Shown here: piece after piece, positions 1-62,106 of the stretch
How the letters are laid out: each line of letters starts with the position of its first letter
Position numbering within the stretch: position 1 is the first letter of the stretch
IMG/VR virus record: IMGVR_UViG_3300032116_000031
Span: 1 to 64,000 of that record
DNA length: 64,000 nucleotides
Source of the DNA: a virus
Reading direction: 5' to 3' (one strand)
The notes under the pieces: model-generated
Seen by the model: the letters and a program-made list of their open reading frames with translations, nothing else
What the model was told of the DNA's origin: nothing
Databases searched by the model: none
Made by a program: the position numbers and the translations under genes

Positions 1-2962
1 ATTGTTTTGGGATAATACAAATAAGCGGTTAGGAGTTGGCACTATATCTCCAAGTACAGCCTTTCACGTTCAAGGAGCAAGCACATTGGCTGGATTAACA
101 ACAGTATCTGGTGATATTAGACCTTCTGTAAATAACACCTATAACGTAGGTTCCTCGACATTAGGATTTCTTGGAATGTATGCCTCAAATAGTGGTATTT
201 GGTATTTTGGTAGTGCTGAATTTGCAAGGCGCGGAGGTTCTGGAGGTGTAGAATTTTCCACAGCTGGCAATAATTTAACAATTTTTAATTCAGACAGAAC
301 GGCCGAAATCGGAAGATTTACAAGCACGAATAGAAATTTATTATTAGGTACTACTTCCGATGTTGCGCGCTTGCACGTCGTAGGCTCTGGAACCAGCTCC
401 TCAACTTGGACAGCCCAATTTCACAACAGCGCAGGGAATAACAACGCGCTTATGATACGCGATGATGGGAATATCGGTATTAACACTAATACCCCTAACG
501 CACGGTTGCAGGTTCAAGGTGCTGATACAAGCAATTCAAATTGGACGGCGCAATTCCATAACTCCCTCGGAAATAGCAACTCCTTAATGATCAGAAATGA
601 CGGGAATGTGGGGATTGGTACAACAGGAACAACAGCGAGATTGGTTGTCAGAGCAAGCGGTTCTTCATCAGGTTCAACAGCTATGCTTGTTGAAAATAGT
701 GGAGGAACATCTATGTTAATGGTTAGAGAAGATGGTAATGTGGGGATTGGAACAAATACACCAAGTTTTAATTTAGAAGTTGTCGGCCAATCAAGGATTG
801 GGGGTAACTTTGATGTATCGACAAATACTTCTTTTTTTGTAACAGGGTCAAGGACTGATCGTAGAATTACAAATACTTTTACTGGTTCAATAACCAACTC
901 TGTAGGGTACTTTGCTGGCACTGTTGATATGAGAGGAAGTCAAGCATTTACAGCATTTAATGGAATGACATTTGCAGTAAATAACCAAAATACAAGCGCA
1001 AGTAATAATATCACAGCTGGCAATTTTACAGTAACAAATGACGCGGCAAATGCAGGATTGAGCAGAGGTATTGGAGTTGTAGGTAGATTTGTTAATTCTT
1101 CAAATGTTGCAGCTAATGATATTAGATGCGTTCAAGGCGATGTTAGCAATTTATTAACTGGAAGCACAATAAGTAATTTGTATTTGTATAGAGCTGAAGT
1201 GGCCTCTAATTTGGGGACAATAACAAACACATACGGTTATTTTGTTGGAGATATAACTGCTGGTACACAAGTTAATACACCTTATAGTTTCTATGCTATT
1301 GATCCAAATGCCTTTAACTATTTTGCGGGATCAACAGGTATAGGCACCACAACACCAGCGCAAACCCTTGACGTTGCTGGTACGATGCGTTTGACGGGAT
1401 CAACTGGAACGGGAACAACCTTAATGGCTAGGAATGCAGCTGGAGATGTTTCGGCTGTTACGGTTGGAAGTGGTTTGAATTTATCTAATAATACCTTAAC
1501 AGCAACAGGCGGTGGAACAGGGACTCTAACAGGTTCGGGAACAGCAACACAAGTTGCCTTTTGGGGTGGTACAACGGGTTCAACATCAACAGCTTTATCA
1601 GGAAGTTCAAGTTTATATTGGGATGGTATAAACAATCGTTTGGGGATAGGTACATCAACGCCTTCTGCACCCCTCACAATAAAAAGTTACGGTAATTCAA
1701 TTTCAACAAATGAAGCGTTTAGCATATTCAACAGTGCTGCAACACCATTAAATTTATTAACGGTACTTGAAAACGGTAATATTGGGATTGGTGGTCAAAC
1801 CTCACCTATCTATAAATTAGATATTTTAGGTAATCTTCGTTTGGGTACTTCATCTATTCAATTTGGTATCGGAGAAAGCGGTGGTAACAGCGTTATATTG
1901 GGCTCATTGACAAATCACCCCTATAGATTTATTGTAAATACAAATGAAGCTGCTCGTTTTACAACAGATCGTAATTTAAGTATAGGTGCGACTGGTTCTA
2001 CAGCTAGATTATTAGTTGTCGGTTCACAACCAAGTGGAACAACAACGTGGACGGCGCAATTCCATAATGCACTCGGAAATAGCAATTCTTTGATGATCAG
2101 AGATGATGGTAATGTGGGGGTTGGGACAAGTACCCCTAATTTTAAATTAACAGTCCAAGCAAATGATGCTGGTTTACTTGTAAGTGGTGCTAACGTATCT
2201 CCTTTCACTCAAATCATTGCTAGTTTTGTTTACGGAGGAAACGGTAATACTATAAATGTAGAAAATAGGGGTGGTAGAGCATCTTTTCAAGCGAGAGCAA
2301 CTACAGCAGTAGGAGCAGCTGCATCTCCTTTGTTTTTAAACCCAAATGGAGGAACTGTTAGTGTTAATAACGATAATCCAGATGCTTCTGCTATTTTTGA
2401 TGTTAGAAGTACCACACAGGGCTTCCTCCCACCGAGGATGTCAACAGCTAATAGGAACTTAATTTCATCCCCTGCAACAGGTCTTCAGGTTTATAATAGC
2501 AGTTTAAATGTGATGCAGCATTATAACGGTGTATCATGGGTAAATGAAGCTAATCCTATATTAACTCGTGTTTCCACTGGTACAACACAGGTTGAGTTGT
2601 TTTTGGACGGCGTTTCTTCACGGTTTGGTCTTGTGGGTACCAATAAGGTTTGGAATTTTAGAATACAATTATGTGCTATTGTCGCTTCCGCTGGAACAGG
2701 AACTTTAGATATAGCTGATTCTTATATATCCGAACATTTAATCGGAATAAAAAGATCAGGTTCAAGCATTAATGTTGTTGGCGGCGGCGTTGTTCAAAAT
2801 TTAATCGGCGCGAATACACAAATGGAAGATTCTGTTGTAACAATAACGGGCGATAGCGGAACCGAATCCATAAGGGTGTTTTATACCCCGCCTTCGGGTG
2901 CCGCTGCAAATACGGTTATAAGAATAAGTGCAACATTATATTATACCGAAGCTGGTGTGTAG
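1..2962 (+). CDS. Giant tail-fibre protein A, 5'-truncated by window edge
   Basis: This is the C-terminal 986 residues of a repetitive phage tail fibre, presumably used for host attachment. The reading frame is open to the window edge. Its apparent TTG start is not real, because the same FWDNTNKRLG segment lies deep inside the third fibre gene at about 8410. Repeated units carry the signatures WTAQFHN, LMIRxDGNVGIGT and GTMRLTGSTGTG. A segment near 2398-2560 (TTQGFLPPRM, GLQVYN) is typical of Bacteroidetes fibres and surface proteins. The last 130 residues form a non-repetitive, probably globular tip. A copy of the dispersed GGACGGCG word follows the stop codon directly. The fibre role is inferred from architecture; receptor and exact virion position are unknown. 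Confidence 0.85.
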   Translation, partial: LFWDNTNKRLGVGTISPSTAFHVQGASTLAGLTTVSGDIRPSVNNTYNVGSSTLGFLGMYASNSGIWYFGSAEFARRGGSGGVEFSTAGNNLTIFNSDRTAEIGRFTSTNRNLLLGTTSDVARLHVVGSGTSSSTWTAQFHNSAGNNNALMIRDDGNIGINTNTPNARLQVQGADTSNSNWTAQFHNSLGNSNSLMIRNDGNVGIGTTGTTARLVVRASGSSSGSTAMLVENSGGTSMLMVREDGNVGIGTNTPSFNLEVVGQSRIGGNFDVSTNTSFFVTGSRTDRRITNTFTGSITNSVGYFAGTVDMRGSQAFTAFNGMTFAVNNQNTSASNNITAGNFTVTNDAANAGLSRGIGVVGRFVNSSNVAANDIRCVQGDVSNLLTGSTISNLYLYRAEVASNLGTITNTYGYFVGDITAGTQVNTPYSFYAIDPNAFNYFAGSTGIGTTTPAQTLDVAGTMRLTGSTGTGTTLMARNAAGDVSAVTVGSGLNLSNNTLTATGGGTGTLTGSGTATQVAFWGGTTGSTSTALSGSSSLYWDGINNRLGIGTSTPSAPLTIKSYGNSISTNEAFSIFNSAATPLNLLTVLENGNIGIGGQTSPIYKLDILGNLRLGTSSIQFGIGESGGNSVILGSLTNHPYRFIVNTNEAARFTTDRNLSIGATGSTARLLVVGSQPSGTTTWTAQFHNALGNSNSLMIRDDGNVGVGTSTPNFKLTVQANDAGLLVSGANVSPFTQIIASFVYGGNGNTINVENRGGRASFQARATTAVGAAASPLFLNPNGGTVSVNNDNPDASAIFDVRSTTQGFLPPRMSTANRNLISSPATGLQVYNSSLNVMQHYNGVSWVNEANPILTRVSTGTTQVELFLDGVSSRFGLVGTNKVWNFRIQLCAIVASAGTGTLDIADSYISEHLIGIKRSGSSINVVGGGVVQNLIGANTQMEDSVVTITGDSGTESIRVFYTPPSGAAANTVIRISATLYYTEAGV

Positions 2963-2963
2963 T

Positions 2964-2980
2964 GGGGTGGACGGCGAAAT
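2964..2980 (+). repeat. Intergenic copy of dispersed word after fibre A
   Basis: An exact 17-base copy, GGGGTGGACGGCGAAAT, begins two bases after the stop codon of fibre A, in the 56-base gap before fibre B. It has no inverted partner here, so it is not itself a hairpin terminator. Confidence 0.9.
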
Positions 2981-3018
2981 ATATAAAAACTAAATAAAAA
3001 AAACTATAAACATATAAC

Positions 3019-6000
3019 ATGGCAAATATAATAAATTTTCCTTCTGGAAAGGTTGGTATAGGGACAGAAAATCCCCAACAAACCCTTGATATCGCTGGAA
3101 CATTACGTTTATCGGGTTCGACGGGAACGGGAACAACATTGATGGCAAGAAACGCATCGGGTGATGTTTCCGCTGTTACTATCGGTGTCGGATTAAATTT
3201 ATCAAATAATAGCCTGACCGCAACGGGCGGCGGAACGGGTACGGTTTCGGGTTCGGGAACCGCAACCCAAATCGCTTTTTGGGATGGTGCAACGGGCACA
3301 ACATCATCATCCCTTGCAAGCAGCGCAAATTTATATTGGAATAATGTTAATAGCCGTTTGGGTGTGGGTACCAATACTCCCACAAGAACATTAGATGTAG
3401 TAGGTGATTTATCTATTGGTTCATCACACAAGTGGACTATCTCTTCTAATATTTTTTCTCTTCCAAATAGCACAAATGCTTTTATAAGCCTACAAAGTGA
3501 TAGGTATTTGAATATAACTAATTCAAGTTCCACTGTTGGTATAATATCCTTCGATCATAATAATCGTAATACTTTTATAGGTAATAGAATTTCAAATCCA
3601 ATCACGGAGGCTAGATTAGTTGTGGCTGGTTCTGGTATTACAGCAGCAGGGTGGACGGCGCAATTCCATAACAGCGGTGGTACAAATAACTCTTTAGTGA
3701 TAAGAAATGACGGTAATGTTGGTGTAGGTACTGTTGATTTAAACTCTCGTCTTCAAGTTCAAGGCGCTGATACAAGTGATACGGGGTGGACGGCGCAATT
3801 CCATAACTCCCTTGGAAATAGCAATTCCTTAATGATCAGAAATGACGGGAATGTGGGGATTGGAACAACAGGAACAACGGCAAGGTTAATAATACAAGGT
3901 ACGGGATCTAGTAGTGCAGCTACAATGGCTGTTGTAAATAGTGGTGGAACTAATTCATTAAGAGTTCTTGACAACGGATCTGTTTTAGTTAATTTAACAA
4001 ACGCTAGTTCTCCGATCACACTATTTGAAGTTAATAGTAGAGGTAGATTTTGGGGTGGTATTGAATTAGGTGGTTTTGCTATTGCTAGAATCGACGGGTC
4101 AGGTAACTATTTTAAAAATGTAACTGGGTCTAACGGCTTCGGTTTTTATAATACATCTGGTTTTAACGGTACAATCGGGCAATTTTTTTGGTCCGAATTT
4201 AGTACAAATATTAACCCTACGTCTGGTTCAGCTGAATTTAGTGTACTTAAATTATCTCCAACTTTTAATTTAAGTGGCACTGCTGCAACAACTGTAATAG
4301 GTTTAGATTATAATCCAGTCATAAATTCAATAGTTAACGGTAAAAATTATGCAGCTCTTTTTCGTTCTGGTTCTGTAGGTATTGGTACATCAACACCAGT
4401 GCAAACCCTTGACGTTGCTGGTACGATGCGTTTGACGGGATCAACTGGAACGGGAACAACTTTAATGGCTAGGAATGCGGATGGTGATGTTTCGGCTGTT
4501 ACGGTCGGAAGTGGTTTGAATTTATCTAATAATACCTTAACAGCAACAGGTGGTGGAACGGGTGCGGTTTCTGGTTCGGGAACAGCAACACAAATCGCTT
4601 TTTGGGGTGGTACAACGGGTTCAACATCAACAGCTTTATCAGGAAGTTCGAATTTATATTGGGATGGTATAAACAATCGTTTGGGGATAGGTACGTCAAC
4701 ACCTGCTGCTAGATTAGATGTTGGTAATGGGGTTATAGGTATAACAGGGTCGATTGGTTTTACCAATAATAGTAGAATGATCACATTTAATGATGCTAAT
4801 AACGGGATGCTTTATACTGGTTTTGGAGGTCATAGGTTTTCAGTTTTTAATCAGACAACTTATCAAAACGCTTTAGTTATAACAGGAAATAGTCCCACAC
4901 CAAATGTAGGTATAGCAGTTGAAGCACCTGTAGCAAGATTACAGGTTCAAGGATCAGATACAAGTGATACGGGGTGGACGGCGCAATTCCATAATTCTCT
5001 TGGAAACAACAATTCCTTAATGATCAGAAATGATGGAAATGTTGGGGTTGGTACAAGTGGTACGACAGCAAGATTTGTTGTCAGAGCAAGTGGTTCTTCA
5101 ACTGGTTCAACAGCTATGCTTATTCAAAATAGCGGTGGAACTACTTTATTAAGAGTTAGGGAAGATGGAAATGTTGGGATTGGTACAGCAGAACCAACTA
5201 ATAGACTTTATGTTGACGGTTCAACTTACGTAGGTAGCTTAACTGTATTAGGAGGCATAAACAGTATTACTGGTAGTATATTTTTAGCTAGCGCTAGATC
5301 TATCCAATTTGGAAGTAATACTTCTATTATAGGACAAGATGGTAGTTCTGGTTTTATTAGATATACAGTTAATAACAATGAAATATTTAGAGCAACTACA
5401 ACATCTATAGGCATAGGCACCATAACACCAGCGCAAACCCTTCACGTTGCTGGTACGATGCGTTTAACTGGATCAACTGGAACGGGAACAACCTTAATGG
5501 CTAGGAATGCAGATGGGGATGTTTCGGCTGTGACGGTTGGAAGTGGCTTGAATTTATCTAATAATACCTTAACAGCAACGGGTGGTGGTAGTGGAACTGT
5601 TTCTGGTTCGGGAACAGCAACACAAGTTGCCTTTTGGGATAATACAACTTCTTTAGCAGGTAATTCCAATTTGTATTGGGATAATGTTAATAGCCGTTTG
5701 GGTGTGGGGATTACAACACCAACATCAAATCTTGATGTTGTCGGTTCTGTGGAATTTCAAAACCCTTCAACTGCTTTTGATGGGGGTGTTTTGGGGTCAG
5801 AATTGTTAACCACAGGTACAGGTACAAACTGGACTGGGACAAGTTTCGCTACGGGTTATCTTCATGCTACTGGTAGTACTGTTGCTTTGGTGTCATCTGC
5901 TTCTATTTCAAATGGACAATATTATCAGGTTGTCGTTACAGTATCAGGAAGAACAACTGGTAGTATAACATTCAGTATCGGTGGCTATACCAGTTCAAGT

Positions 6001-7881
6001 ATCAGTACAAATACAACTACAACAGTAGGACCTTTTACTACTAGTACAGCTAGCTTTACAGTGACACCAACAAACGATTTTGATGGTACTGTTTTAGCAT
6101 CTGTAAAAGTAATAACTGCTGGTTCAGCTTCTTTTGTTGGTAAAAATAGTGCTGGAACAATAGTTTACGAGGAGAGATTGAGCAATTCAACTACAAATAT
6201 TTTTCAAGGTATTAATGCTGGACCAAGAAATACTACTGGGCTTAATAATATCTTTATAGGACCTTCAGCTGGTAATTCAAATACTACAGGTAATAATAAC
6301 CTTTTTATCGGACTCAATGCAGGATTAGTTAATAGTATTGCAAATAATAACACTTTTATAGGAACTTCAGCTGGTTTTTCAAATACTATTGGAGATTCTA
6401 ATACTTTTATAGGTGCTGGAGCTGGAGTTAATAATACATCTGGATCTAATAACTTCTTTTTAGGTAGAAATACAGGTCTTTCAAATACTATAGGTGTTAA
6501 TAATTTATATATAGGAACATTTTCAGGTGTCTTTTCAGTAAGTGGAGGCAGCAATGTTTATTTAGGTGGAAATACAGGTCGTAATAATGTTGGTGGGTCA
6601 AGTAATGTATTAATTGGTTTAAATGCTGGTAGATATTATAGTGAGTCTACTTTAGATGATACTTCTATAAATAACAGTATTTTTATCGGTGCAGAAACTA
6701 GATCAACTTTATCTGGTCAAACAAACCAAATTATTATTGCAAATAATGGTCGCGGCCTTGGATCCAATACAACCGTTTTAGGAAACACAAGTACGGTTCA
6801 AACCCACCTACACGGTAATCTTACTCTTGGATCAACATCTTCACCTACTGCAAGAATGGTAGTTGTTGGTTCTGGAAGTAGTAATACTGGGTGGACGGCG
6901 CAATTCCATAATGTTCTCGGTAATAGCAACTCTTTGATGATTAGAGACGATGGTAATGTGGGGTTTGGGACTGATGCACCTACTGGTAAAATAGATGCTA
7001 GATCTGATTCAGGTGTTATTGCTTTTTTTGGAGTTGCAAATGGAGGTACTAGACTTTCAGTTAATTCAAATGGCAGAGTTGGTTTAGGTTTAGTTGGGTG
7101 GATTCCAACGACAGACGGAGGACAAAATATAACCACGGGAGCAGGCGGCTGTTTTATTGGTTATGATGCAAGTGGAGATTTAGCATATACTAATGTTGCA
7201 AGCGTTACATTAGGAAGGCCATTGAATAGACTGTTAAATGCAACAACAAATACTCAAAGGATGGTAGATATTGTGGGTAATTTTTCTCCCACAAGCGGAA
7301 ATGCCACTTTTTATGATTTAGGTATTATTCCAATAATAAACCAAACAGGGGGTGCGAGTGGTATAACAAGAGGGGTATTCGTAAACCCAACACTTACAGC
7401 AGCAGCTAATTGGAGATCAATTGAATGGACAAATAACAGTGGCTTTGGTTTATATGGTTCAGGCACCGCAACCAACTATCTTGCAGGATCTTTGGGAATA
7501 GGAACCGATGCCCCAGCGCAAACCCTTCACGTTGCTGGTACGATGCGTTTGACTGGATCAACTGGAACTGGAACAACCTTAATGGCTAGAAATGCGAATG
7601 GGGATGTTTCGGCGGTTACATTGGGCACGGGCGTTGTATTATCCAATAATGTTATATCGGTTGCATTATCCCCGAAAGCGGAAACCCCAAGCGGTTTGGT
7701 TAATGGTTCCAATATAACATATACATTGGCATCCACACCTATAGCAAACCAAAGTGTGATGGTATTCTTAAACGGTGTTGCTCAATATAATGGTATTGAT
7801 TACACTGTAAGCGGAACCACGATAACGTTTGGAACAGCGCCCGCGAATGGATCAAGCATATTTGCATATTATATGGCGTAG
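3019..7881 (+). CDS. Giant tail-fibre protein B
   Basis: This 1620-residue fibre is a paralogue of its neighbours and is probably part of the same adsorption apparatus. It contains four copies of a module with the signatures GTMRLTGSTGTG, LMARN and GLNLSNNTLTATGGG (near 3085, 4405, 5450 and 7530). It also has four WTAQFHN units and a jelly-roll-like segment (GSELLTTG, NWTGTSF; about 5790-6130) that recurs in fibre C. At about 6200-6640 it has a run of short NTFIGxxAGxSN repeats like those of beta-roll adhesin stalks. The C-terminus (VFLNGVAQYNGIDYTVSG) is a common phage-fibre tip domain. Start ATG at 3019 follows an AT-rich leader. Confidence 0.88.
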   Translation: MANIINFPSGKVGIGTENPQQTLDIAGTLRLSGSTGTGTTLMARNASGDVSAVTIGVGLNLSNNSLTATGGGTGTVSGSGTATQIAFWDGATGTTSSSLASSANLYWNNVNSRLGVGTNTPTRTLDVVGDLSIGSSHKWTISSNIFSLPNSTNAFISLQSDRYLNITNSSSTVGIISFDHNNRNTFIGNRISNPITEARLVVAGSGITAAGWTAQFHNSGGTNNSLVIRNDGNVGVGTVDLNSRLQVQGADTSDTGWTAQFHNSLGNSNSLMIRNDGNVGIGTTGTTARLIIQGTGSSSAATMAVVNSGGTNSLRVLDNGSVLVNLTNASSPITLFEVNSRGRFWGGIELGGFAIARIDGSGNYFKNVTGSNGFGFYNTSGFNGTIGQFFWSEFSTNINPTSGSAEFSVLKLSPTFNLSGTAATTVIGLDYNPVINSIVNGKNYAALFRSGSVGIGTSTPVQTLDVAGTMRLTGSTGTGTTLMARNADGDVSAVTVGSGLNLSNNTLTATGGGTGAVSGSGTATQIAFWGGTTGSTSTALSGSSNLYWDGINNRLGIGTSTPAARLDVGNGVIGITGSIGFTNNSRMITFNDANNGMLYTGFGGHRFSVFNQTTYQNALVITGNSPTPNVGIAVEAPVARLQVQGSDTSDTGWTAQFHNSLGNNNSLMIRNDGNVGVGTSGTTARFVVRASGSSTGSTAMLIQNSGGTTLLRVREDGNVGIGTAEPTNRLYVDGSTYVGSLTVLGGINSITGSIFLASARSIQFGSNTSIIGQDGSSGFIRYTVNNNEIFRATTTSIGIGTITPAQTLHVAGTMRLTGSTGTGTTLMARNADGDVSAVTVGSGLNLSNNTLTATGGGSGTVSGSGTATQVAFWDNTTSLAGNSNLYWDNVNSRLGVGITTPTSNLDVVGSVEFQNPSTAFDGGVLGSELLTTGTGTNWTGTSFATGYLHATGSTVALVSSASISNGQYYQVVVTVSGRTTGSITFSIGGYTSSSISTNTTTTVGPFTTSTASFTVTPTNDFDGTVLASVKVITAGSASFVGKNSAGTIVYEERLSNSTTNIFQGINAGPRNTTGLNNIFIGPSAGNSNTTGNNNLFIGLNAGLVNSIANNNTFIGTSAGFSNTIGDSNTFIGAGAGVNNTSGSNNFFLGRNTGLSNTIGVNNLYIGTFSGVFSVSGGSNVYLGGNTGRNNVGGSSNVLIGLNAGRYYSESTLDDTSINNSIFIGAETRSTLSGQTNQIIIANNGRGLGSNTTVLGNTSTVQTHLHGNLTLGSTSSPTARMVVVGSGSSNTGWTAQFHNVLGNSNSLMIRDDGNVGFGTDAPTGKIDARSDSGVIAFFGVANGGTRLSVNSNGRVGLGLVGWIPTTDGGQNITTGAGGCFIGYDASGDLAYTNVASVTLGRPLNRLLNATTNTQRMVDIVGNFSPTSGNATFYDLGIIPIINQTGGASGITRGVFVNPTLTAAANWRSIEWTNNSGFGLYGSGTATNYLAGSLGIGTDAPAQTLHVAGTMRLTGSTGTGTTLMARNANGDVSAVTLGTGVVLSNNVISVALSPKAETPSGLVNGSNITYTLASTPIANQSVMVFLNGVAQYNGIDYTVSGTTITFGTAPANGSSIFAYYMA

Positions 7882-7886
7882 TGAGA

Positions 7887-7948
7887 GGGTGGACGGCGAA
7901 AAATAAAATAATAAATCCGCCGTCCACCCCATTTTCGCCGTCCACACC
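7887..7948. repeat. Three-copy cluster of dispersed word forming a hairpin
   Basis: Just after the stop of fibre B, GGGTGGACGGCG (7887-7898) is followed by its perfect inverted copy (7918-7929). This gives a 12-bp stem with a 19-base loop. A third copy, again inverted, lies at 7932-7948. The stem could act as a terminator or RNA-processing site between fibres B and C, although no T-run follows it directly. Confidence 0.85.
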
Positions 7949-7978
7949 TATTTATAAAAAAAACCTTTTTCATAAAAA

Positions 7979-10900
7979 ATGCCACAAAATAAAATAAGAA
8001 CAGAAGATATTGTTGATTCGCAAATAACCTATGCGAAGATACAAAACGTATCCAATAATAATCTATTATTGGGAAGAAATACAGCAGGAGCGGGGCTTAT
8101 AGAAGAATTAAATGCAGCCACCGCAAAAGCAATATTGGCGTTAAATAATGTTGAAAATGTCGCATTATCAACATGGACAGGTTCAACAAATATTAATACC
8201 CTCGGAACCATCACCCAAGGAACATGGTCGGGATCCACAATATCCATTGATAAAGGCGGAACAGGGCTTAATACCTTGGGAACCGCAAATCAGGTGCTTG
8301 CCGTTAATTCGGGAGGAACCGCCCTGCAATATGTTACACCATTAAGCGGAACAGGTACAGCAGGACAGGTTACTTTTTGGACAGGAACAAATTCTCAAGG
8401 GGGGGATAATGGTTTGTTTTGGGATAATACAAATAAGCGGTTAGGCGTTGGCACAAATGCACCAGCGCATAGACTACAGATTTTAGGGCCTAGTGCAAGG
8501 TTTGAGAACTCGAGCGGAACATTTGAGTTTGATATTGTTGGAGGAGGTACGACCTCACGCATACAAACAACAGCGACAGGCATGGCTTTGGGAACCTTAT
8601 CAAATAACGCTTTGATTTTTTGGATGAATGCGAGCGAAAGAATGAGAATTAATTCATCAACTGGACACGTCGGTATAAACCAAACAGCACCAGCAGCCCG
8701 CCTTCACGTAGTAGGATCCAGCACAGGCACGACGGCTTGGACCGCACAATTCCATAACAGCGGTGGTACAAGCAATTCCTTGATGATCAGAGATGATGGG
8801 AATATTGGTATTAACACTAATACCCCTAACGCACGGTTGCAGGTTCATGGTGCTGATACAGCAGATACAGGGTGGACGGCGCAATTCCATAATTCCCTCG
8901 GAAATAGCAATTCCTTGATGATCAGAAACGACGGTAATGTGGGTATTGGAACAAATGCACCAGCAGCTAAATTAGAAGTGGATCCAATTGTAAATCAAAC
9001 AGGTATTCTTGTAGCAGGATATAGTCTTACTGGTTCAAGCACTATACCTGCAATTGATATCACAGGTGCTTGGAATACTAGTGGTATAGCAACATTAATT
9101 AGAGGAAATCTAACAAATAATGTTTCAGCTGCTACTAGTAGGCTTATAGATTTACAGGTAAGTGGCACAAGCCAATTTAGGGTTTTACCTAACGGTACTA
9201 TTAATGGATCAGAACTTATAGGGCAATTGAGTGGAACTATAGCAGTTAGATCTAATTTAACTAATGTTGCAGGTAATTATGTAACTATAGATAATAATAG
9301 TTCAAATATTACCACTACAACAGGTATAGTTAGTGGTGTTATAATACGATCATCTTATATTCCACCAAGCGGTACTGGAGTGTTTGTTGGATTAAATTTA
9401 AACCATACAATCAATCAATCAAGTGGAAGTGGTTCGACTGGGATAACAAGGGGGCTTCTTGTAAATCCCGCGTTAACATCTGCTTTTGATTGGAGATCAA
9501 TTGAATGGACAAATAATACTGGTTGGGGTTTGTACGGTTCTGGTACAGCAAATAACTATTTGGCTGGTAACTTGAGTGTGGGTACAAGTGGAACAACGGC
9601 TAGATTGGTTGTTAGAGGTAGTGGTGCTACATCAGGTTCAACAGCTATGCTTGTTGAAAATAGTGGAGGAACATCTATGTTAATGGTTAGAGAAGACGGT
9701 AATGTGGGGATTGGAACGAATGCACCAACTACTCGTTTAGATGTCAGCGGAACGGCAAGAGTACAGGGGACGACTACAATAACACCCGCTGCTAATACTT
9801 CAGCTATTACAAGTACTGGATATTCTGTTACAGGTAGTGATACAACAAGAATGATTGATCTATCTGGCACATGGAATACGACTGGGAATGTTACTGCTAT
9901 TAATTTGGATATAACTAATACAGCAAGTGGTGTTAATTCTAATTTAATTAATTGTTCTATAAATGGAACAACAAATATTTTTTCAGTAAGAAGAACAGGT
10001 GAAGTTGCTGTACAAAATTTATATTCGTTTCATTCAAGTAACGGAACACTTTCTGCAACTTCAACACTCACAATACAAACGGCTGCATCGCAAACAGGAG
10101 GTATTTTTTTAAATAAAAGTGCTTCTGTTACTGCTACATCTGGAGATTTTCCTACAATAACTTTAAATAATATATCAAATTCATTTGCTCCTACAAGTGG
10201 TACTGCTACATTTACTTCTATAAGAGCCATACCTACTATCAACCAAACAGGTGGGGCAAATGGTATAACAAGAGGGATAATCGTAAGCCCCACATTAACA
10301 TCTGCTTTTGATTGGAGATCAATTGAATGGACAAATAGTTCTGGTTGGGGTCTTTACGGTGAAGGCACCGCAAATAACTATTTAGGAGGTAATTTAAGTG
10401 TTGGTACAACAGGGTCAACAGCTAGATTGGTGGTGGTTGGTTCTCAACCAAGTGGAACGACAACATGGACAGCTCAATTCCATAATGCCCTTGGAAACAG
10501 CAACTCTTTGATGATCAGAGATGACGGAAATGTGGGTATTGGAACGAGTACACCAACATCAAGACTTGATGTTGTGGGTACGGTTGAATTTCAAAATCCA
10601 TCGGCGGCTTTTGACACCCCGTCTTTTGGATCTGAACTGTTAACTACAGGTGCAGGTACAAACTGGACTGGAACAAGTTTTGCTAGTGGATACACACACA
10701 CTACTGGTAGCACCGCAGCTTTAACTAGTGCATTTACACCTTTAAATGGTCAAATTTATAGAGTTGTAGTAACTACTACAAACCTTATATTTGGTCAAAG
10801 TGTTACAGTTACTTTTGGAGGAGTTTTAGATCAAACAATTACTTCTAATACAACAATTACTTTTGATAGTAGAACAATTAATACATCTGCTTTAGTAATT

Positions 10901-13467: not shown

Positions 13468-13479
13468 TGGACGGCGAAA
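13468..13479 (+). repeat. Dispersed word exactly filling an intergenic gap
   Basis: TGGACGGCGAAA occupies all twelve bases between the stop codon of the 76-residue gene (13480-13482) and the start codon of the 122-residue gene (13465-13467), both on the - strand. Confidence 0.85.
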
Positions 13480-14519: not shown

Positions 14520-15449
14520 TTACCAATTAATTTTATTTCTTATTTCTATTAACAATTTATGTGTAAATTCTTCATCGACTTGATCTGGGATATTAAGCCT
14601 ATCTATTTCGCCGTCCAACCTCTTAATCCTCTTCTCCAATTCATTAATCAATTCAATATGATCCACGTTACCGTTTCTAATATCAATCAATTCTTTTCTA
14701 TTATCCCTGTAAACTTTCATCGAACCAGTATTAATTAATTCCTCCAATGAATCCAAAATCCTTTTAGCGTGCATTAAACTTTTGCCGTCCACCAACAAAC
14801 CATTATCGTCAACAACATTCCTGACCCCTTGAAAAAACAAATAACCAACAGGCGTTTCTCCTTTGGGGATATAAGAAGAATAAATTCCACCTATATCTGA
14901 AATAATCCCCTTATATAGTTTTGTTTTCTTATAATATAATGGAAAACTGCTTTTATTCTCATAATCCTTACAGAAAAGACCTAAATTGTTAATATCATAA
15001 CCATTCAATTTTAAGAAATCATTTAGAGGCATTTCTTTACCATCAAGGGTTATAACAAAGGCCAAATCAAACATATTCTTAATCTTTGACTTCTTAATGT
15101 TTTGAACCGCCATTCCAATAAAGGCATTCTTTATTTTTTTGGTAATAAAGATATTTCTGTTCTCAATTAACAAATTGAAAACAGGGTCCTTGTGTAAAAT
15201 AAATCTATCATCAGTGAAAAGCATCTCTAATAGAGATGGATTACCGCTTTTAAGCAATTGAATAAATCGCCTAATTTCATAACCAACATAATCCTTATTG
15301 ACATTTATTTGCTCAACATATTTAAACCCAAGTATGCTTTCTGGGTGTTGAATGTATACAAATTTTTTGTCAACATCAGAAGTGATAATGTCAGTGTTGT
15401 AGCTAACGCTACCAGTAATTGATTCGAATAATATTTTTTTATCTTCCAT
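14520..15449 (-). CDS. DNA polymerase beta-superfamily nucleotidyltransferase
   Basis: This 309-residue protein starts with the nucleotidyltransferase motif GSVSYNTDIITSDVDKKFV, equivalent to the GSxxYGTxxxxSDxD motif of the RlaP-like predicted nucleotidyltransferases. The aspartates would bind metal. EIRRFIQLLKSGNPSLLEML is the usual helical segment that follows in this family. T4-type phages carry relatives whose targets are not established. It has its own host-type promoter. One exact (LDGEI) and one one-mismatch (VDGKS) copy of the dispersed word lie in its C-terminal half. Confidence 0.75.
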   Translation of the reverse strand: MEDKKILFESITGSVSYNTDIITSDVDKKFVYIQHPESILGFKYVEQINVNKDYVGYEIRRFIQLLKSGNPSLLEMLFTDDRFILHKDPVFNLLIENRNIFITKKIKNAFIGMAVQNIKKSKIKNMFDLAFVITLDGKEMPLNDFLKLNGYDINNLGLFCKDYENKSSFPLYYKKTKLYKGIISDIGGIYSSYIPKGETPVGYLFFQGVRNVVDDNGLLVDGKSLMHAKRILDSLEELINTGSMKVYRDNRKELIDIRNGNVDHIELINELEKRIKRLDGEIDRLNIPDQVDEEFTHKLLIEIRNKINW

Positions 15450-28801: not shown

Positions 28802-28804
28802 ATA

Positions 28805-47762: not shown

Positions 47763-48974
47763 AACATTCTTATTAAGAATACGCTGCAAATCGAAATTTA
47801 ATAGCTTCAGGAGATTTTCTTCTCTTACCGCTACCATAGCGTGTTCAGGGTGAATATGTGTTGCCAACACATCCCTCATTAAACTTAATAGCTCAACAAG
47901 GCGATCACCGTAAGGTATTGGATGGCCTTTTTCAGCTAAATTAACAATATCTGCATCTGTAACTAAATCAGGTTGTTTCTTTAAATCAAATTCATTGTTT
48001 AAATGACTAACCAGAAATATTTTATCAGATACAGTTAAAGAAGTTGAAAAATCCAAATACTTTTCAACTAATATATTTTCCTCCCTATTCGTATCTAACG
48101 GTGTTGGAGGATATAATTTAGGTAAAGCAGCTAAAGATGGATCTGTAGAAGTTAGTTTCCACAAAGGATATGTTGACTGTAAAGTTAATAATTGTGATTT
48201 AATCTCTACTACTAATTCATCTTTACTGCTTTTAGTATATCTAGTCGAAGATATTACTTTAATATTTGTAAGATTTGATATGTCTTTAACTATTATTGTC
48301 GCAGCAAAATCGCTTATGAACTGCACCACGAATTCAATTGTAGGATTCTTAAATGTTTTTACATTAAGGTTTTTCTTTTCTACCTTTTTATCTTTTTTCT
48401 CTGGAAAGCTTAATAACTGATACGATGGATTTACTTTATTAAATTTTAAGGGATTATTAAGCTCATGCCCACCTACCCTCAAAAGTAATTGTCTTTCCTT
48501 TAAGAATATATTAACATTATTTCTACCGTTAATTGAAATTTCATCTTTCTTTGCAAAAATACCTTTACTTTCAGCAATAGTAGAAGATTTCTTTGGATAC
48601 TTCAATATACCATCAGGATAATGCCTGTTACTTTCGTAGGCAAAGTCTTGATTTTCTATATTGTATACATTTGAATGTACTACACTGATCCAATATCTTA
48701 TATCTTTACTGTTGTAATTAGAAGTATTATAAACATTCCTAAACATTAAAGTTACTCTTTCACCTACTTTTGGTAGTATTCTGAAGAAGGAAAAATTAAA
48801 TAAAGGGAAACATAAAGGTAAGTCTTCGTCATTTAAAGCAGTGTCTATCTCTTTAATCCTAACCCTAATTATACCATTCTCTTCGCCGTCCAACAAACTA
48901 ACGACTTCCCCTTCAAATATATTTTTACTATAAAAAATATCCGAACGACTACTACTAAATTCAGATGAAAACAT
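47751..48974 (-). CDS. Baseplate hub OB-fold protein, T4 gp5-like N-terminus
   Basis: This 407-residue protein has an N-terminal domain (FEGEVVSLLDGEENGIIRVR...LPKVGERVTLMF) with the OB-fold pattern of gp5/gpV-type hub and spike proteins. The rest lacks a lysozyme domain and the glycine-rich beta-helix of the classical spike, so it may be a hub protein only. It sits among baseplate genes. The dispersed word (LLDGEE) lies in the middle of the OB fold at 48882. Confidence 0.6.
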   Translation of the reverse strand: MFSSEFSSSRSDIFYSKNIFEGEVVSLLDGEENGIIRVRIKEIDTALNDEDLPLCFPLFNFSFFRILPKVGERVTLMFRNVYNTSNYNSKDIRYWISVVHSNVYNIENQDFAYESNRHYPDGILKYPKKSSTIAESKGIFAKKDEISINGRNNVNIFLKERQLLLRVGGHELNNPLKFNKVNPSYQLLSFPEKKDKKVEKKNLNVKTFKNPTIEFVVQFISDFAATIIVKDISNLTNIKVISSTRYTKSSKDELVVEIKSQLLTLQSTYPLWKLTSTDPSLAALPKLYPPTPLDTNREENILVEKYLDFSTSLTVSDKIFLVSHLNNEFDLKKQPDLVTDADIVNLAEKGHPIPYGDRLVELLSLMRDVLATHIHPEHAMVAVREENLLKLLNFDLQRILNKNVLTG

Positions 48975-51600: not shown

Positions 51601-51621
51601 AATCTCGTTTCTTTATAAATA

Positions 51622-52425: not shown

Positions 52426-53208
52426 TTAACCTTCATATGTTATATGTCTGTCTTCACTGAAGAAATATTCTTTTTTTGCTAAGTCTTGATAAAATTTAAT
52501 TTCAAGTTTATCCAAAGAATCATAGTATGCCGTTAGGCTACCTTCTCTCTTGATTCTATGTCTAACCATTAATTTAGGTATTACCATTACTTCGGATAGC
52601 TGATTCAAAATCCTCAAGAAATATTCGTATTCAAAGTATTTTTTGATACTATGTTTATATCCGCCATTATCAATAAATTCAGCTGTTTTGTATATAGCTG
52701 ATGTAAAGGAGAACAAGGACATTTTCTTCAATGTTTCAAAATCCAAATACCCTTGTTTATCTGTATAATTCATACTCCATGCTAATTCATTCACCATATT
52801 AGTAAAGGATTCGCCGTCGAACTCCAAGTTAATAGGAAGGAATACTGATACATTTGGATATGCTTTTGAATACTCTTCTGTGTATGTTACAAAGGTATTA
52901 TTTAATACGTCGTCATATTGTAGTACGGTGAAGTAGGGCGTGGATATGGAGGTTTGGACGGCGAAATTAATGACCTCCGTATAATTTGGATAAAGTTCCC
53001 TCAATTCCTCTGGAAGATCAAGGAAGTTTAATTTCAAGCCAAATGTATTGGATGCTTCTACTTGCTTTTTCAAATCCGCAAAAGTAGCAACCAATATATC
53101 GAAGTCTTTACTATCTTGTTTAGCCAATGACTCAAACATTTCTATAATATAGCTATCTTCGACATCTAGCTTATGAATTGGTATAATTACTGTTAATTTA
53201 TTGCTCAT
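52426..53208 (-). CDS. Family 2-like glycosyltransferase
   Basis: This 260-residue GT-A fold protein begins LTVIIPIHKLD and carries a DxD-like QYDDVLNN motif. It probably moves a sugar from a nucleotide donor. It overlaps the GT-B-type gene by 11 bases, so the two are co-translated. Targets could be virion proteins, phage DNA or host surface glycans. It carries one exact (INFAVQ at 52955) and one mismatched (FDGES) copy of the dispersed word. Confidence 0.7.
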   Translation of the reverse strand: MSNKLTVIIPIHKLDVEDSYIIEMFESLAKQDSKDFDILVATFADLKKQVEASNTFGLKLNFLDLPEELRELYPNYTEVINFAVQTSISTPYFTVLQYDDVLNNTFVTYTEEYSKAYPNVSVFLPINLEFDGESFTNMVNELAWSMNYTDKQGYLDFETLKKMSLFSFTSAIYKTAEFIDNGGYKHSIKKYFEYEYFLRILNQLSEVMVIPKLMVRHRIKREGSLTAYYDSLDKLEIKFYQDLAKKEYFFSEDRHITYEG

Positions 53209-54301
53209 CTTGATATTTTTTAATTGTTAGATTTACTTTTTCGATTTTGCTTTCAAAAATCCTATTAAAGGTTGCTTTTGTTTGATTTGTAAAGTTTTGT
53301 TCGTTGTATGGCTCCACTGTTTTTTGCATGTTGTCATACATCTGCTGTGGAACATCACCCAACAGCCAATTCTCAACAAAACGTGCTATATAATCAGGTA
53401 TCGCTAAAATATTAGATAGATACACCGCATTATCACTCAATTTGATATTATCTCCTTCGATATTTTCAGCCCATTCTGGGATTAAATCTGGAATTTTAAC
53501 AATTACAGGAACTCCTGATTTCATTGACTCCAAGGGAAATGTACCAAAGGTAGCGTAATCATCAATCCAAATAGATAAACAAGTTTCTTTTAGTGCCTCT
53601 GCAAAACTTTCTTTAGGTAAATTACCAAGGGTTTTAAAAGAGAACCAAGAATACATAGGATATTTTTGGTAGAATAGTTTTGCTACTCTTTCCAAGTCGT
53701 CTTGATTTCTACTGATAATTGATATTATTGGTTTTTGTGGAAGGGTGGACGGCGAAAAGACATCCGAAATGGCGGGATTAATAACGTAAGTATTTTTAAC
53801 AGGTTGATATTCAGCTAAAAAAGTTTTCATCTTATTAGATGTTGTAATAGCATGATCCACACCATAAAAACTCCAACCTTCGCCTGCATTCATATATTTG
53901 AAAATAAATGAGTGAGATTGACAAATTACTACTGTATCAGAAGGAAGTTTACTCTCCCAAAGCTTTTTAATTAAGTCAGCATATAGCTCTGGAATAAAAA
54001 AAGTATCGGAACCGTTAATTTGATACTCTGGATTATTATTCATTGTCGTGATTGAAATATGCTTCAACGAGGAATATCTTTCACCCATCCAATTCTGAAC
54101 ACCGACAAATTTTTCCTTTTCGTGTAACATAATGACCTTGTACCCTTCATCATCCATTATACCTGCTATCTTGTATATGTATTCAATTGAAGCCATTGGA
54201 GTGCCATTAGTGTCGGCGACAAAAAAGAATAATCTTCCTTCCTTATTCTCTATTTTGCCCCTTAGCTCTACCAATTTTTCTATTATTTCTTTATTTTCCA
54301 T
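53198..54301 (-). CDS. GT-B-type glycosyltransferase
   Basis: This 367-residue protein has a two-Rossmann layout. Its C-terminal half (SIISRNQDDLERVAKLFYQK...ATFGTFPLESMKSGVPVIV) has the donor-binding pattern of GT4-type enzymes. No signal peptide is visible, so it acts in the host cytoplasm. It stands in a cluster with two other glycosyltransferase genes. A dispersed-word copy encodes FSPST at 53743, in the linker between the two domains. Confidence 0.72.
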   Translation of the reverse strand: MENKEIIEKLVELRGKIENKEGRLFFFVADTNGTPMASIEYIYKIAGIMDDEGYKVIMLHEKEKFVGVQNWMGERYSSLKHISITTMNNNPEYQINGSDTFFIPELYADLIKKLWESKLPSDTVVICQSHSFIFKYMNAGEGWSFYGVDHAITTSNKMKTFLAEYQPVKNTYVINPAISDVFSPSTLPQKPIISIISRNQDDLERVAKLFYQKYPMYSWFSFKTLGNLPKESFAEALKETCLSIWIDDYATFGTFPLESMKSGVPVIVKIPDLIPEWAENIEGDNIKLSDNAVYLSNILAIPDYIARFVENWLLGDVPQQMYDNMQKTVEPYNEQNFTNQTKATFNRIFESKIEKVNLTIKKYQDEQ

Positions 54302-54968: not shown

Positions 54969-56536
54969 AGTATTACGATATAATTTTTTAATTTATGTTT
55001 ATATTCTATAATTTTTGGTTGTAAGACTTCCACAAAGTCCCTGTTTATTCTTTGAATTTTATCGGGATTTTCATCTCTTGTAAGCGATTCGTAATGATAA
55101 CATACAGCATCTCCTTGATAGAAGTTAGTTTTATCTTGTTTAGCTAATATATCTAAATTCAAAACTACATCTTCAAAACATTCAACTGTGTTTTCATTGA
55201 AGCCATTTACCTTTTCAAATAGTTTTTTGTTGACCAACAAAAAGGCCCCAGTTGATCCCACCATGTTTGAAGACAGTTTACTGTTGAAGGAATAATAACT
55301 TTTCAAACCATAATGAGAAGCGCCTATTCTTTTGGCTTTATCAACATATAAAATAATACCTGCATGTTGGATTCTTAAATTAGGATATAATAGTCTACAT
55401 CCAACCGTACCGCACCTGTGCTTGTTTTTTTGATACGTTAAAACCATTAAATCAAGGGCGTTGTTGATTAATTGAATATCATTATTACAGAATAATAATA
55501 GTTCTTCGTCATTAAAATAAGTTTTAATTAATTCATTGTTATTTTTTGCAAAATTATAGTAGTCTAATTGATGAATTTTTAATTTAATATTCTTATGATC
55601 CAACGCGGTTATTTGTTCGACATATGAATTTAAAGCAAGTAAAGACTCTTCAGATGAACCAGTATCGCCAACTACTATATTAAGATTAATGTTTTTATTT
55701 GTTTTCTTGATTAAAGAATTAATACATTTAATCAAGTAATCTATTTTATCCTTAGTTAAAATAACAACACCGACGGAAACACTATTCACCTGTACAGGAT
55801 TTATTTTTGCTATGTCTGTTAAATTAGGTCTGGTTTGGATAGGTAAGAGATCTTGATACATTTCCAAAAATACATTTCGATTAAAATACCAAGAATTAGA
55901 TACTTGACCTATACTTTTATGGTGAATTTTAAATGAAGTGGTTACACCTATTTTAACTCCTTCTAAAAAGTTTTCTACACTAAAACAAACGTCATAAAAG
56001 TGGAAACCTTTTATCTTTTCATTGAAGTTCTTCTTTATCCTATCTTTTTTCAGAGCAATAAAAACGCCGTCCAACACACAAACATTCATCACAAAATCAT
56101 GATGACTAGAAAATTCAGAATCATATTTTACTAGTTTACCATTAATTTCTCTTTCGTGAGAAACAATTCCAGCTAAGTCAGCCCTATTCTCCCACCAAAT
56201 ACCACTTTTATTTAAAGAGGTTGCTCCAGCTAATCCAATAATTCCATAATCAGTTGTTTCAAATATCTCTATTATTTTTTCATCCCACCCTTTAGGTAAA
56301 ACAATATCATCGTGGGCTAAAACTAATATCTCATCTTCCCCACACATATCCAAAGCTTTATTGTAAGCTTGTGTTAAAGAATATTGATTATCATTTTCAA
56401 ATTCAACAATCCTAACATCAGTTTTCAAAGAATTTAATATCTTTTTCCGATTTTCTTCTGATTTTTTTCTAGTACTATAAAAATAGAGCATATTTATATT
56501 TGAGTAATCTATAAGTTTTTTTAAACATTGTTGCAT
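54965..56536 (-). CDS. Two-domain family 2 glycosyltransferase
   Basis: This 523-residue protein has two GT-A-like domains. The N-terminal one carries LTQAYNKALDMCGEDEILVLAHDD. The second starts VGVVILTKDKIDYLIKCINS with DTGSSEESL, CNNDIQLINN and VNGFNENTVECFEDVVLNLD. The tandem layout resembles bifunctional polysaccharide synthases, so it could add alternating sugars. A dispersed-word copy encodes VLDGVF at 56065. Confidence 0.75.
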   Translation of the reverse strand: MQQCLKKLIDYSNINMLYFYSTRKKSEENRKKILNSLKTDVRIVEFENDNQYSLTQAYNKALDMCGEDEILVLAHDDIVLPKGWDEKIIEIFETTDYGIIGLAGATSLNKSGIWWENRADLAGIVSHEREINGKLVKYDSEFSSHHDFVMNVCVLDGVFIALKKDRIKKNFNEKIKGFHFYDVCFSVENFLEGVKIGVTTSFKIHHKSIGQVSNSWYFNRNVFLEMYQDLLPIQTRPNLTDIAKINPVQVNSVSVGVVILTKDKIDYLIKCINSLIKKTNKNINLNIVVGDTGSSEESLLALNSYVEQITALDHKNIKLKIHQLDYYNFAKNNNELIKTYFNDEELLLFCNNDIQLINNALDLMVLTYQKNKHRCGTVGCRLLYPNLRIQHAGIILYVDKAKRIGASHYGLKSYYSFNSKLSSNMVGSTGAFLLVNKKLFEKVNGFNENTVECFEDVVLNLDILAKQDKTNFYQGDAVCYHYESLTRDENPDKIQRINRDFVEVLQPKIIEYKHKLKNYIVIL

Positions 56537-56868: not shown

Positions 56869-56892
56869 TAATTTGATAGGCAAAAAAAAAGA

Positions 56893-57517: not shown

Positions 57518-57528
57518 AGAAATAATTT

Positions 57529-60335: not shown

Positions 60336-60351
60336 ATCTATTAATTTTCTG

Positions 60352-60382
60352 CAAAGGTAACTGTTTTAATCCAATCTACAAA
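60352..60382 (-). promoter_or_regulatory. Bacteroidetes-type promoter for exonuclease-dUTPase operon
   Basis: TTTG, 19 bases, then TACCTTTG on the - strand. The -7 element ends 16 bases before the ATG at 60335. The promoter overlaps the last codons of the upstream glycosyltransferase gene. Confidence 0.7.
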
Positions 60383-61515
60383 AGATTTCTATAAATTTCT
60401 GCTCTAATTTTAGTGGTGTCATCTAAATTGAAATTCTTAAAAACATATTGGTAGAGATTTTCTCCCATATCTATTCTCATTTGTTCCGATTCCACTAACT
60501 GCTTAACATATTTCATCCAATTTTTATGCTCTTTTCTGGGATCAACTATTAGGCAATTTTTTTCATGTTCGCCGTCCAAATAAGGCTGAACCCCACTAAC
60601 GATAATGGGCTTCTTCTTAACTCCAGCCTCAAGCATCTTTAAATTACTCTTATAATAATTGAATTTATTATCTTGTAAAGGGGCAAGAGCAATATCGATT
60701 TCATCATAAGATTGACAATATGAATTAATAGGTTTAGTCCATACACGCTTATATTTCATTTGATTCTGATAAGGATAAGGATCTTGAATGAACTCGTGAA
60801 GATACTCTATGAATTTATTGTCTTTAAAAGCATAGTTATCAGTAAACTCTATTTCCATTTTATGCCAAACAGAATTCAAAGCTGTTTCCCTAGCACTATT
60901 GAAGCCACATAACTGCATTTGGATATTCTTATTCATAGTAGAAGACATTACGCCTCTTAACAACTTAATATCTTCCAAATGAGAAGATCCAGCTACATAT
61001 CCAATATTCACAGTTTCATGTGGAATACTATTTATCTGATACTGTTTTTCTTTAAAATTAATAGAGTTAGGCAAGCAAACCACATTCTTATTATACTTTC
61101 TTAAAACATCAACAAAAAATTCTGATGTAGTAGTCACTAAATCTGCTTTCTTAATTGCAGCTAAGGTTTTCTCTTTGAGTTTGATATTTTTTGCAATTGC
61201 ATAATAAGGATGTAAAGCATGATATTCAAAATAATCATCAATATCGACAATTAATTTAATCCCCATGGATTTATATATATCCGTTTGTCTTCCGATAGCT
61301 TCTATTTGCTCTATCACTGAATGATAAAATATCGCGTCAAATTTTTTAACTCTTTCGGTATTTAAAATTTCTCTATCTTCTGCTAATTCAATGTAAAACT
61401 CATCTTTAAATAAGGTTTGGAGCTTAATGTGTGGATCAGATATTCTGTATTTATTGATACCTGAACTAGGGTCATTTAAAAGGAATACTAAAATTTTTTT
61501 TATATTTCTCGACAT
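60376..61515 (-). CDS. GT-B-type glycosyltransferase
   Basis: This protein of about 379 residues starts at ATG 61515 (MSRNIKKILVFLL); an upstream TTG at 61563 would begin within the promoter. VDIDDYFEY, LVTTTSEFFVDVLRKY, CLPNSINF and the C-terminal IALAPLQDNKFNYYKSNLKM with LEAGVKKKPII are typical of GT4-like enzymes. It is the fourth glycosyltransferase gene of the window. A dispersed-word copy encodes YLDGEH at 60568. Confidence 0.75.
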   Translation of the reverse strand: MSRNIKKILVFLLNDPSSGINKYRISDPHIKLQTLFKDEFYIELAEDREILNTERVKKFDAIFYHSVIEQIEAIGRQTDIYKSMGIKLIVDIDDYFEYHALHPYYAIAKNIKLKEKTLAAIKKADLVTTTSEFFVDVLRKYNKNVVCLPNSINFKEKQYQINSIPHETVNIGYVAGSSHLEDIKLLRGVMSSTMNKNIQMQLCGFNSARETALNSVWHKMEIEFTDNYAFKDNKFIEYLHEFIQDPYPYQNQMKYKRVWTKPINSYCQSYDEIDIALAPLQDNKFNYYKSNLKMLEAGVKKKPIIVSGVQPYLDGEHEKNCLIVDPRKEHKNWMKYVKQLVESEQMRIDMGENLYQYVFKNFNLDDTTKIRAEIYRNLL

Positions 61516-61530
61516 ACAAATTATTTTTAG

Positions 61531-61564
61531 CAAATATAATAAAAATTGAAAAAGATAACTCAAA
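61531..61564 (-). promoter_or_regulatory. Bacteroidetes-type promoter for the glycosyltransferase
   Basis: TTTG, 22 bases, then TATATTTG on the - strand, ending 15 bases before ATG 61515. The spacer is slightly long. It overlaps the apparent start of the divergent gene on +. Confidence 0.55.
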
Positions 61565-62106
61565 AATTTTTATTATTTAGTGGTTTTAGATATTCTTTTT
61601 ATAACGGAAGATCCCTTAATAAACATTGTATAGGGGAATTCACTGTACTGTGGAATTGTGTATATAGACTTCCTTATTATAGGTTTGATTATGAGTTGGA
61701 CGGCGAAATAGAAGAAGAAATAATCGCATTTAAAACAATTGGCTGCTGGATTATTATTTCCAACAGCCAAATACATAAAATCAACTACGAGGAAGAATTA
61801 TTAAACCTTAATCTACCTATTAAAAAAGATAATGAAAACTACGAATTTGTCTATATAATAAATTCGGCGATAGGATATAAAATAGGTAGAACTAAAAACA
61901 TTGATAATAGAAGTGCAATTTTTAATGTTAAATTGCCGTTCGAATGGTCTTTCTATGATATTCACATCGTAAAAGACTCAAAACGAGTTGAAAAATTGTT
62001 CCATTTGGTTTTCAAGAATAAAAGAATAAACGGAGAATGGTATGACCTAAACGCGGAAGATCTAAATGATATTAAACGCTTTTTACAAACTCCATATTCC
62101 CCTTAA
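61546..62106 (+). CDS. T5orf172 (GIY-YIG-like) domain protein
   Basis: This protein has up to 186 residues. The C-terminal half (FVYIINSAIGYKIGRTKNID, then RVEKLFHLVFKNKRINGEWY) is the T5orf172/MUG113 type domain, related to GIY-YIG nucleases. The N-terminal 90 residues are unassigned. No ATG exists in the frame; TTG 61546 is the first possible start, so the gene may use a non-standard start or be 5'-damaged. A dispersed-word copy encodes LDGEIEEE at 61696. Its end overlaps the converging gene by 35 bases. Confidence 0.65.
   Translation: MKKITQKFLLFSGFRYSFYNGRSLNKHCIGEFTVLWNCVYRLPYYRFDYELDGEIEEEIIAFKTIGCWIIISNSQIHKINYEEELLNLNLPIKKDNENYEFVYIINSAIGYKIGRTKNIDNRSAIFNVKLPFEWSFYDIHIVKDSKRVEKLFHLVFKNKRINGEWYDLNAEDLNDIKRFLQTPYSP

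Follow-up and report, generated by a model that had tools for sequence, protein, structure and literature searches.

Among dispersed sites described in phages and bacteria, the stoperators of mycobacteriophages lie mostly between genes, follow the direction of transcription and serve as binding sites of a repressor. Chi-like words have been established in no more than five bacterial species (PMC8022716); in lambdoid phages the host Chi is over-represented by a median of 2.3-fold, mainly in those without a recombinase of their own (PMC3784561). Here, a nine-base word, TGGACGGCG, was analysed in the IMG/VR virus record IMGVR_UViG_3300032116_000031. The window comprised the first 64,000 bases of this 136,214-base viral contig (hereafter named G000), which belongs to a T4-like myovirus encoding the Gp23 capsid protein, the Gp20 portal, PolB, a terminase and UvsX. 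Together with a flank rich in G and T (GT) on its 5' side, the word forms a two-part DNA element that is real, strongly selected and new in sequence and setting.

A nine-base word dispersed through a T4-like phage

The 8-mer GGACGGCG was present in the window in 36 exact copies (23 on the plus and 13 on the minus strand), and 100 dinucleotide-preserving shuffles gave a mean of 0.12 copies and a maximum of 1. A T precedes GGACGGCG in 36 of 36 copies, and hence the invariant core is the 9-mer TGGACGGCG. In the whole G000 contig this core occurs 67 times (39 plus, 28 minus; about 0.04–0.15 expected), and in G000 and its close relatives there is about one copy per 1.4–2.2 kb. It is short, asymmetric, not palindromic and strongly over-represented, as is required of a Chi site. 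One-base variants are nearly lacking (seven 9-mers in the window), with slight relaxation only at position 9. The positions outside the core are preferences, namely G/T at -1, G at -2 and AAA(T) after the core; the 17-mer GGGGTGGACGGCGAAAT is exact in the window only twice (at 2964 and 24070), and at up to three mismatches 24 copies were found versus 0.02 expected. An earlier reading of the letters alone (the sequence-only reading) had reported a dispersed word, which was borne out and proved stronger than described, with a length of 17 bases, which was not. Its 35 copies (22 plus, 13 minus) were exact for the minus strand and one short for the plus strand, and its five one-mismatch copies referred to the 8-mer. 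The copy-free gaps that it listed (8.9–13.4, 18.5–23.2, 41.8–45.6 and 49–52.8 kb) are correct.

Only 6 of the 67 copies are intergenic; about 91% lie within genes, where sense and antisense words are both common. Both orientations had been claimed together with all three frames; in the window the sense readings use phases 0 and 1 and the antisense readings phases 1 and 2, and a sense reading in phase 2 is seen only outside it. The "harsh" frames, which give Arg-Arg-Pro and Gly-Arg-Arg, are absent or rare. The orientations are mixed and interleaved along G000, with no replication-strand orientation; their alternation was borderline in G000 only, and regular spacing was not significant. Seven of the ten tail-fibre WTAQFHN repeats carry the word. 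Since these seven are protein-repeat paralogs and not independent, they were omitted from the logo and flank statistics, which were computed on 60 independent copies in G000. Rfam and tRNA scans gave no match, and the literature, searched as text for the word, yielded unrelated sequences only.

The word is also abundant in relatives. G001 (IMG/VR 3300024301_000013, 71.8 kb, 76% nucleotide identity to G000) contains 34 copies, G002 (66.2 kb, 61% identity) 49, G003 (39.7 kb) 28, and G005 (46.5 kb, identical to G000 across the 14 kb compared) 19; other clade fragments have 0.2–0.9 words per kb. Members of this clade share 78–83% capsid identity, where comparable. No word was found in 80 T4-like viral contigs at 43–51% capsid identity (GC 28–38%, 1.19 Mb), and the word therefore marks this clade. 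When sister T4-like contigs were screened for words peculiar to them, the top words were mostly tandem protein repeats; the lone dispersed candidate, ATCGGCAA in L234, vanished once the whole contig was counted.

An unplaced 8.3-kb viral contig (L092, 1–8330; genes for DUF932, DUF3846 and pentapeptide proteins) contains 10 words (1.2 per kb), 8 of which are arranged as four facing pairs, each folding into a strong hairpin. It has no protein in common with G000, its tetranucleotide use is similar only in part, and a search of the viral contigs for relatives of its DUF932 protein gave none. It may derive from such a phage, perhaps from an early region, or be a further replicon in the same host. 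In the window, facing words between two tail-fibre genes (7880–7950) also fold into a strong hairpin (-30.1 kcal/mol, z -7.2), which a third word adjoins.

Conservation at the nucleotide level and a one-sided flank

In codon-aligned orthologs of G000 and G001 the in-gene words were exact in 24 of 29 cases, versus 14.5% identity for non-word 9-mers; between G000 and G002 they were exact in 14 of 25, versus a background of 2.9% (binomial P about 1e-15 for each pair). The word is under purifying selection at the nucleotide level. Wobble bases are conserved at words, and elsewhere GGC is retained at only 17–21% of conserved glycines; that is, codons are fixed at words and free elsewhere, and several unrelated peptides are encoded. 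GACGGC codes for 39 Asp-Gly pairs versus 4.2 expected, and 27 of the 31 [LVM]DG[EVDAG] motifs are made by the word. At site 40817, G001 keeps the peptide LDGV with the word absent, and thus the protein has no need of the word. The word, for its part, shapes the protein. Where words were gained or lost, several bases usually differed, mostly with unchanged alignment length and few gaps, indicating that copies arise by substitution.

The flank was tested at synonymous positions, the amino acid sequence being kept constant and codon usage serving as the control. On the word-bearing strand G and T were enriched, and A and C depleted, on the 5' side only; G was 1.5-fold enriched in the nearest three codons (9 nt), the effect fading by about 30 nt, and no matching GT effect was found 3' of the word. 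The 5' flank was seen for sense and antisense words and in three phages. Pooled z-scores lack independence, some sites being common to G000 and G001. Longer-range skew was assessed by a per-site sign-permutation test on segments cut at neighbouring words; the upstream-minus-downstream GT skew, out to 480 nt, gave P = 0.0002 in G000 and about 0.01 in G001.

The flank is present only in the ortholog that carries the word. Words found only in G002 had a GT excess of +0.356 per codon in G002 versus +0.064 in the G000 ortholog, and words found only in G000 had +0.326 versus +0.004 in the word-lacking ortholog; the effect was clear in the G000/G002 and G001/G002 comparisons. The flank could be a selected context, or the mutational trace of repeated single-strand exposure (C to T, A to G). 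No clear signal of recombination breakpoints around words was obtained in close pairs.

These results bear on the sequence-only reading, which had placed the action of the word at the DNA level. Conservation between orthologs, frame independence and the polar flank at synonymous positions all back this claim. The comparison of orthologs that it proposed pointed to substitution, rarely with gaps, rather than insertion. It had also named two refuting outcomes, namely relatives without an excess of the word, or copies reducible to conserved protein motifs with normal codon choice; both were looked for and neither was obtained, the excess being present in G001, G002 and G003.

A proposed Chi-like signal and its alternatives

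The best-supported mechanism, to which we give about an even chance, is that TGGACGGCG acts as a polar Chi-like signal for DNA-end processing and recombination. Such a signal most likely accounts for the asymmetry of the word, its GT-rich 5' side, its indifference to genes and its density, and it fits best among the candidates listed in the sequence-only reading. Membership in Chi is unproven, since neither the genome of the host nor a reader protein was found. A helicase-nuclease, either from the host (AddAB/RecBCD type) or encoded by the phage, would enter at a double-strand end, reach the word from its 3' side and cease destroying that strand. This would leave a 3' single-stranded tail that stops close to the word, and the GT-rich stretch 5' of the word would favour the loading of RecA or phage UvsX; invasion, repair and recombination-dependent replication would then follow. 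RecA filaments have their greatest stability on TGG repeats (PMC3763553). With one word per about 2 kb in both directions, nearly any broken or entering end could be rescued within a few kb.

Recombination-dependent replication of the T4 type is expected to involve UvsX, SbcCD, and UvsW-like and Dda/UvrD-like helicases. G000 encodes, besides UvsX, SbcC/SbcD-like subunits, a DnaB-like helicase, and UvsW-like and UvrD/Dda-like helicases. The candidate SbcC-SbcD-exonuclease operon provides possible partners of the word. Its third product, of 437 amino acids (29608–30921), matches an exonuclease family; RecB-like PD-(D/E)XK motifs were recognised in it by eye, but were not confirmed by a Pfam match, by a solved relative or by modelling (single-sequence model unusable, pLDDT 34). 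This protein is 88% conserved in G001, and SbcC and SbcD about 70%.

Several observations weigh against a Chi-like signal. In G002 only the near part of the GT skew was present and the long-range part was absent, and G000 and G001 tend weakly to be AC-rich 3' of the word, which is not predicted. Phages with their own recombinase usually avoid the host Chi (PMC3784561), and G000 encodes UvsX. A PF12705 search for an AddAB/RecB-type nuclease in the phage found none. The host genome was not found either: a scan for facing pairs in the genomes of 84,980 species gave 12 matches of one locus each, in genomes with 0–4 copies of TGGACGGCGAAA, i.e. background; a host Chi would be enriched in the core genome of its host. 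A host Chi should benefit many phages of that host, yet the word is nearly confined to the clade, and AT-rich viral contigs outside it showed no enrichment except the unplaced L092. Finally, the mixed orientation lacks the replication-strand bias of E. coli Chi, a bias which is not found for all Chi sites and may not apply to recombination-dependent phage replication.

Since neither host nor reader was found, recombinase phages are expected to avoid host Chi and the word is confined to the clade and L092, there is room for a phage-encoded reader. Thus, in a tentative variant that we consider rather unlikely, the word would belong to the T4-like lineage itself and be read by the phage resection machinery (e.g. 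the SbcCD-exonuclease operon with UvsX) and not by host AddAB/RecBCD, so that the genome would steer its own recombination-dependent replication.

Also rather unlikely is that the copies are scattered binding sites of a sequence-specific phage protein with a role in organising, condensing, segregating or packaging the genome, in the manner of ParB, a nucleoid protein or a stoperator. The restriction to one phage clade at 78–83% capsid identity, the sharp sequence specificity and the roughly genome-wide spread are all in keeping with this reading, but it does not predict a one-sided GT flank at synonymous sites over tens to hundreds of bases. A stoperator or dispersed repressor site in the strict sense was rejected; such sites are expected to be mostly intergenic and oriented with transcription, unlike the largely intragenic copies in either orientation observed here.

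A modification or self-recognition mark, for instance methylated by host or phage and shielding the DNA from a nuclease or defence system, is improbable. The near-invariant word with one slightly relaxed position resembles an enzyme specificity, and clade restriction is compatible with it; however, known restriction systems select for the loss of sites and not their gain, the polar GT flank is left unexplained, and no methyltransferase was found among the proteins scanned (the scan was not exhaustive). Restriction evasion, another candidate of the sequence-only reading, is disfavoured, as it would predict avoidance and the word is enriched instead.

A little less probable still is a replication signal of the phage replisome (a primer, fork-stall or recombination-origin site). 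Local strand skew does flip sign at the word in G000 and G001, but GT upstream with AC downstream is the reverse of an origin, and G002 lacks the long-range part. Moreover, the signals known to prime T4-type replication are very short and frequent.

Just below this ranks the uptake sequence of a naturally competent host, which would have built up in the phage. Its 9-base core, its high density and the facing pairs forming intergenic hairpins (L092; window 7890–7926) would suit such a sequence, and uptake signal sequences (USS) accumulate in temperate Pasteurellaceae phages; large (>150 kb), likely lytic ones are USS-poor (PMC6776037). The facing pairs in the species genomes were single loci at background counts, although the host may be outside that set, and the persistence of the word across 61% identity shows that the phage itself benefits. 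The sequence-only reading had listed this candidate, which is thus unlikely in a phage that is large and probably lytic.

A self-spreading mini-repeat, also listed there, is most improbable, as is a conserved protein motif written in its usual codons, since beyond the seven tail-fibre paralogs, which do fit, gains and losses are mostly gap-free, the word is read in several frames and orientations, wobble bases are conserved at words and the word-less G001 ortholog encodes LDGV with other codons.

Word sites, phage genes and known systems

The word sites of the window and the candidate recombination operon are listed below.

Table 1. Copies of TGGACGGCG and the candidate recombination operon in the window
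Feature	Position	Strand	Context
Word	542..550	+	Tail-fibre WTAQFHN copy
Word	2048..2056	+	Tail-fibre WTAQFHN copy
Word	2604..2612	+	Sense LDGV
Word	2968..2976	+	Intergenic; within exact 17-mer 2964-2980
Word	3652..3660	+	Tail-fibre WTAQFHN copy
Word	3787..3795	+	Tail-fibre WTAQFHN copy
Word	4975..4983	+	Tail-fibre WTAQFHN copy
Word	6892..6900	+	Tail-fibre WTAQFHN copy
Word	7890..7898	+	Intergenic; hairpin arm 1, pairs with 7918
Word	7918..7926	-	Intergenic; hairpin arm 2
Word	7936..7944	-	Intergenic
Word	8873..8881	+	Tail-fibre WTAQFHN copy; 2 differences in G001 ortholog
Word	13468..13476	+	12-bp gap directly upstream of minus-strand start codon at 13467
Word	14609..14617	-	Sense LDGE; kept in G001
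Word	16642..16650	+	Antisense SPSN; kept in G001
Word	17721..17729	-	Sense VDGE; absent in G001 ortholog
Word	18468..18476	+	Antisense SPST; kept in G001
Word	23252..23260	-	Sense VDGE; kept in G001
Word	24074..24082	+	Antisense SPST; within exact 17-mer 24070-24086; absent in G001
Word	26659..26667	+	Antisense, SbcC-like gene; kept in G001
Word	28543..28551	-	Sense, SbcC-like gene; kept in G001
Word	32521..32529	+	Antisense; kept in G001
Word	33577..33585	-	Sense LDGV; kept in G001
Word	38243..38251	+	Antisense; kept in G001
Word	38369..38377	-	Sense VDGE; kept in G001
Word	39263..39271	+	Antisense TPST; kept in G001
Word	40817..40825	-	Sense LDGV; LDGV by other codons in G001
Word	41721..41729	+	Antisense FAVH; kept in G001
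Word	45646..45654	+	Antisense, baseplate gene; kept in G001 and G002
Word	46241..46249	-	Sense; kept in G001, absent in G002
Word	48884..48892	-	Sense; kept in G001 and G002
Word	52955..52963	+	Antisense; kept in G001 and G002
Word	53746..53754	+	Antisense; kept in G001 and G002
Word	56065..56073	-	Sense; kept in G001 and G002
Word	60570..60578	-	Sense, glycosyltransferase-like gene; kept in G001 and G002
Word	61697..61705	+	Antisense FAVQ
Candidate recombination operon	26318..30921	-	SbcC-like 26318-28801, SbcD-like 28805-29611, exonuclease-like (437 aa) 29608-30921

Shine-Dalgarno sites were found at only 2 of 108 gene starts of G000, which show an A-rich leader at -14 to -10, and its annotated capsid relatives include a Flavobacterium phage; from these features we infer that the host probably belongs to the Bacteroidota. 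Gene starts in G002 have the same pattern, with hardly any Shine-Dalgarno sites and an A-rich leader, which is typical of Bacteroidota hosts.

Other genes were observed in passing. At 13703–14518 of the window, the N-terminal domain of a dATP/dGTP diphosphohydrolase is apparently fused to a 5'-nucleotidase-like part. At L009:11399-13016 (contig 75399-77016) the gene for the ribonucleotide reductase large subunit is interrupted by a 1.6-kb insertion of 24% GC, which carries an HNH-endonuclease-like gene and no word and is missing from the 98%-identical relative L153. An IS605-type TnpB, also without the word and about 40–43% identical to TnpB of many bacterial plasmids, is encoded at L011:11985-13211 (contig 115985-117211), and L011:15488-16300 (contig 119488-120300) codes for a phage protein in which a caspase (Peptidase_C14) domain was recognised (E 1.2e-19).

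Bioinformatic detection of Chi has been weak so far, and here one word stands out several hundred-fold. If it were a host Chi, it would be, as far as we found, the first proposed for the likely host phylum, and would help to link phages to their host; if it were owned by the phage, a virus would be steering its recombination in a new manner. A polar GT flank at synonymous sites could serve as a general test for Chi-like sites from sequence alone and, as the word is fixed to nine letters with a flank signature, its reader can be fished with an oligonucleotide.

As regards known systems, Flavobacterium phage immuto (Immutovirus) and Microcystis phage Mel-JY01 are T4-like and among those with the closest annotated capsid proteins, but contain 0 and 3 words, respectively, and in neither was a comparable dispersed GC-rich word found. 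Mycobacteriophage stoperators are likewise asymmetric sites (~13 bp) dispersed over a phage genome, from which the word differs by its intragenic position and use of both orientations. It resembles the uptake sequences of Pasteurellaceae (USS) and Neisseria (DNA uptake sequences, DUS), which have a 9–12 base core, hundreds of copies per Mb and inverted pairs as terminator-like hairpins (for the word, in L092 and at one window locus), and which occur in phages of competent hosts. However, USS accumulate in temperate and are rare in large lytic Pasteurellaceae phages (PMC6776037), whereas the word is conserved at orthologous positions and has a GT-rich 5' flank. With Chi sites (E. coli GCTGGTGG, with RecBCD, and the Chi-like motifs of H. 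influenzae, B. subtilis, L. lactis and S. aureus) it shares a short, asymmetric, G-rich and over-represented sequence, a mostly intragenic position, a GT-rich pairing side and action via DNA rather than protein. It differs from them in sequence and in an excess of several hundred-fold, compared with the median of 2.3-fold in lambdoid phages (PMC3784561), and it sits in a UvsX-encoding T4-like phage, without replication-strand bias and with an explicit one-sided GT flank.

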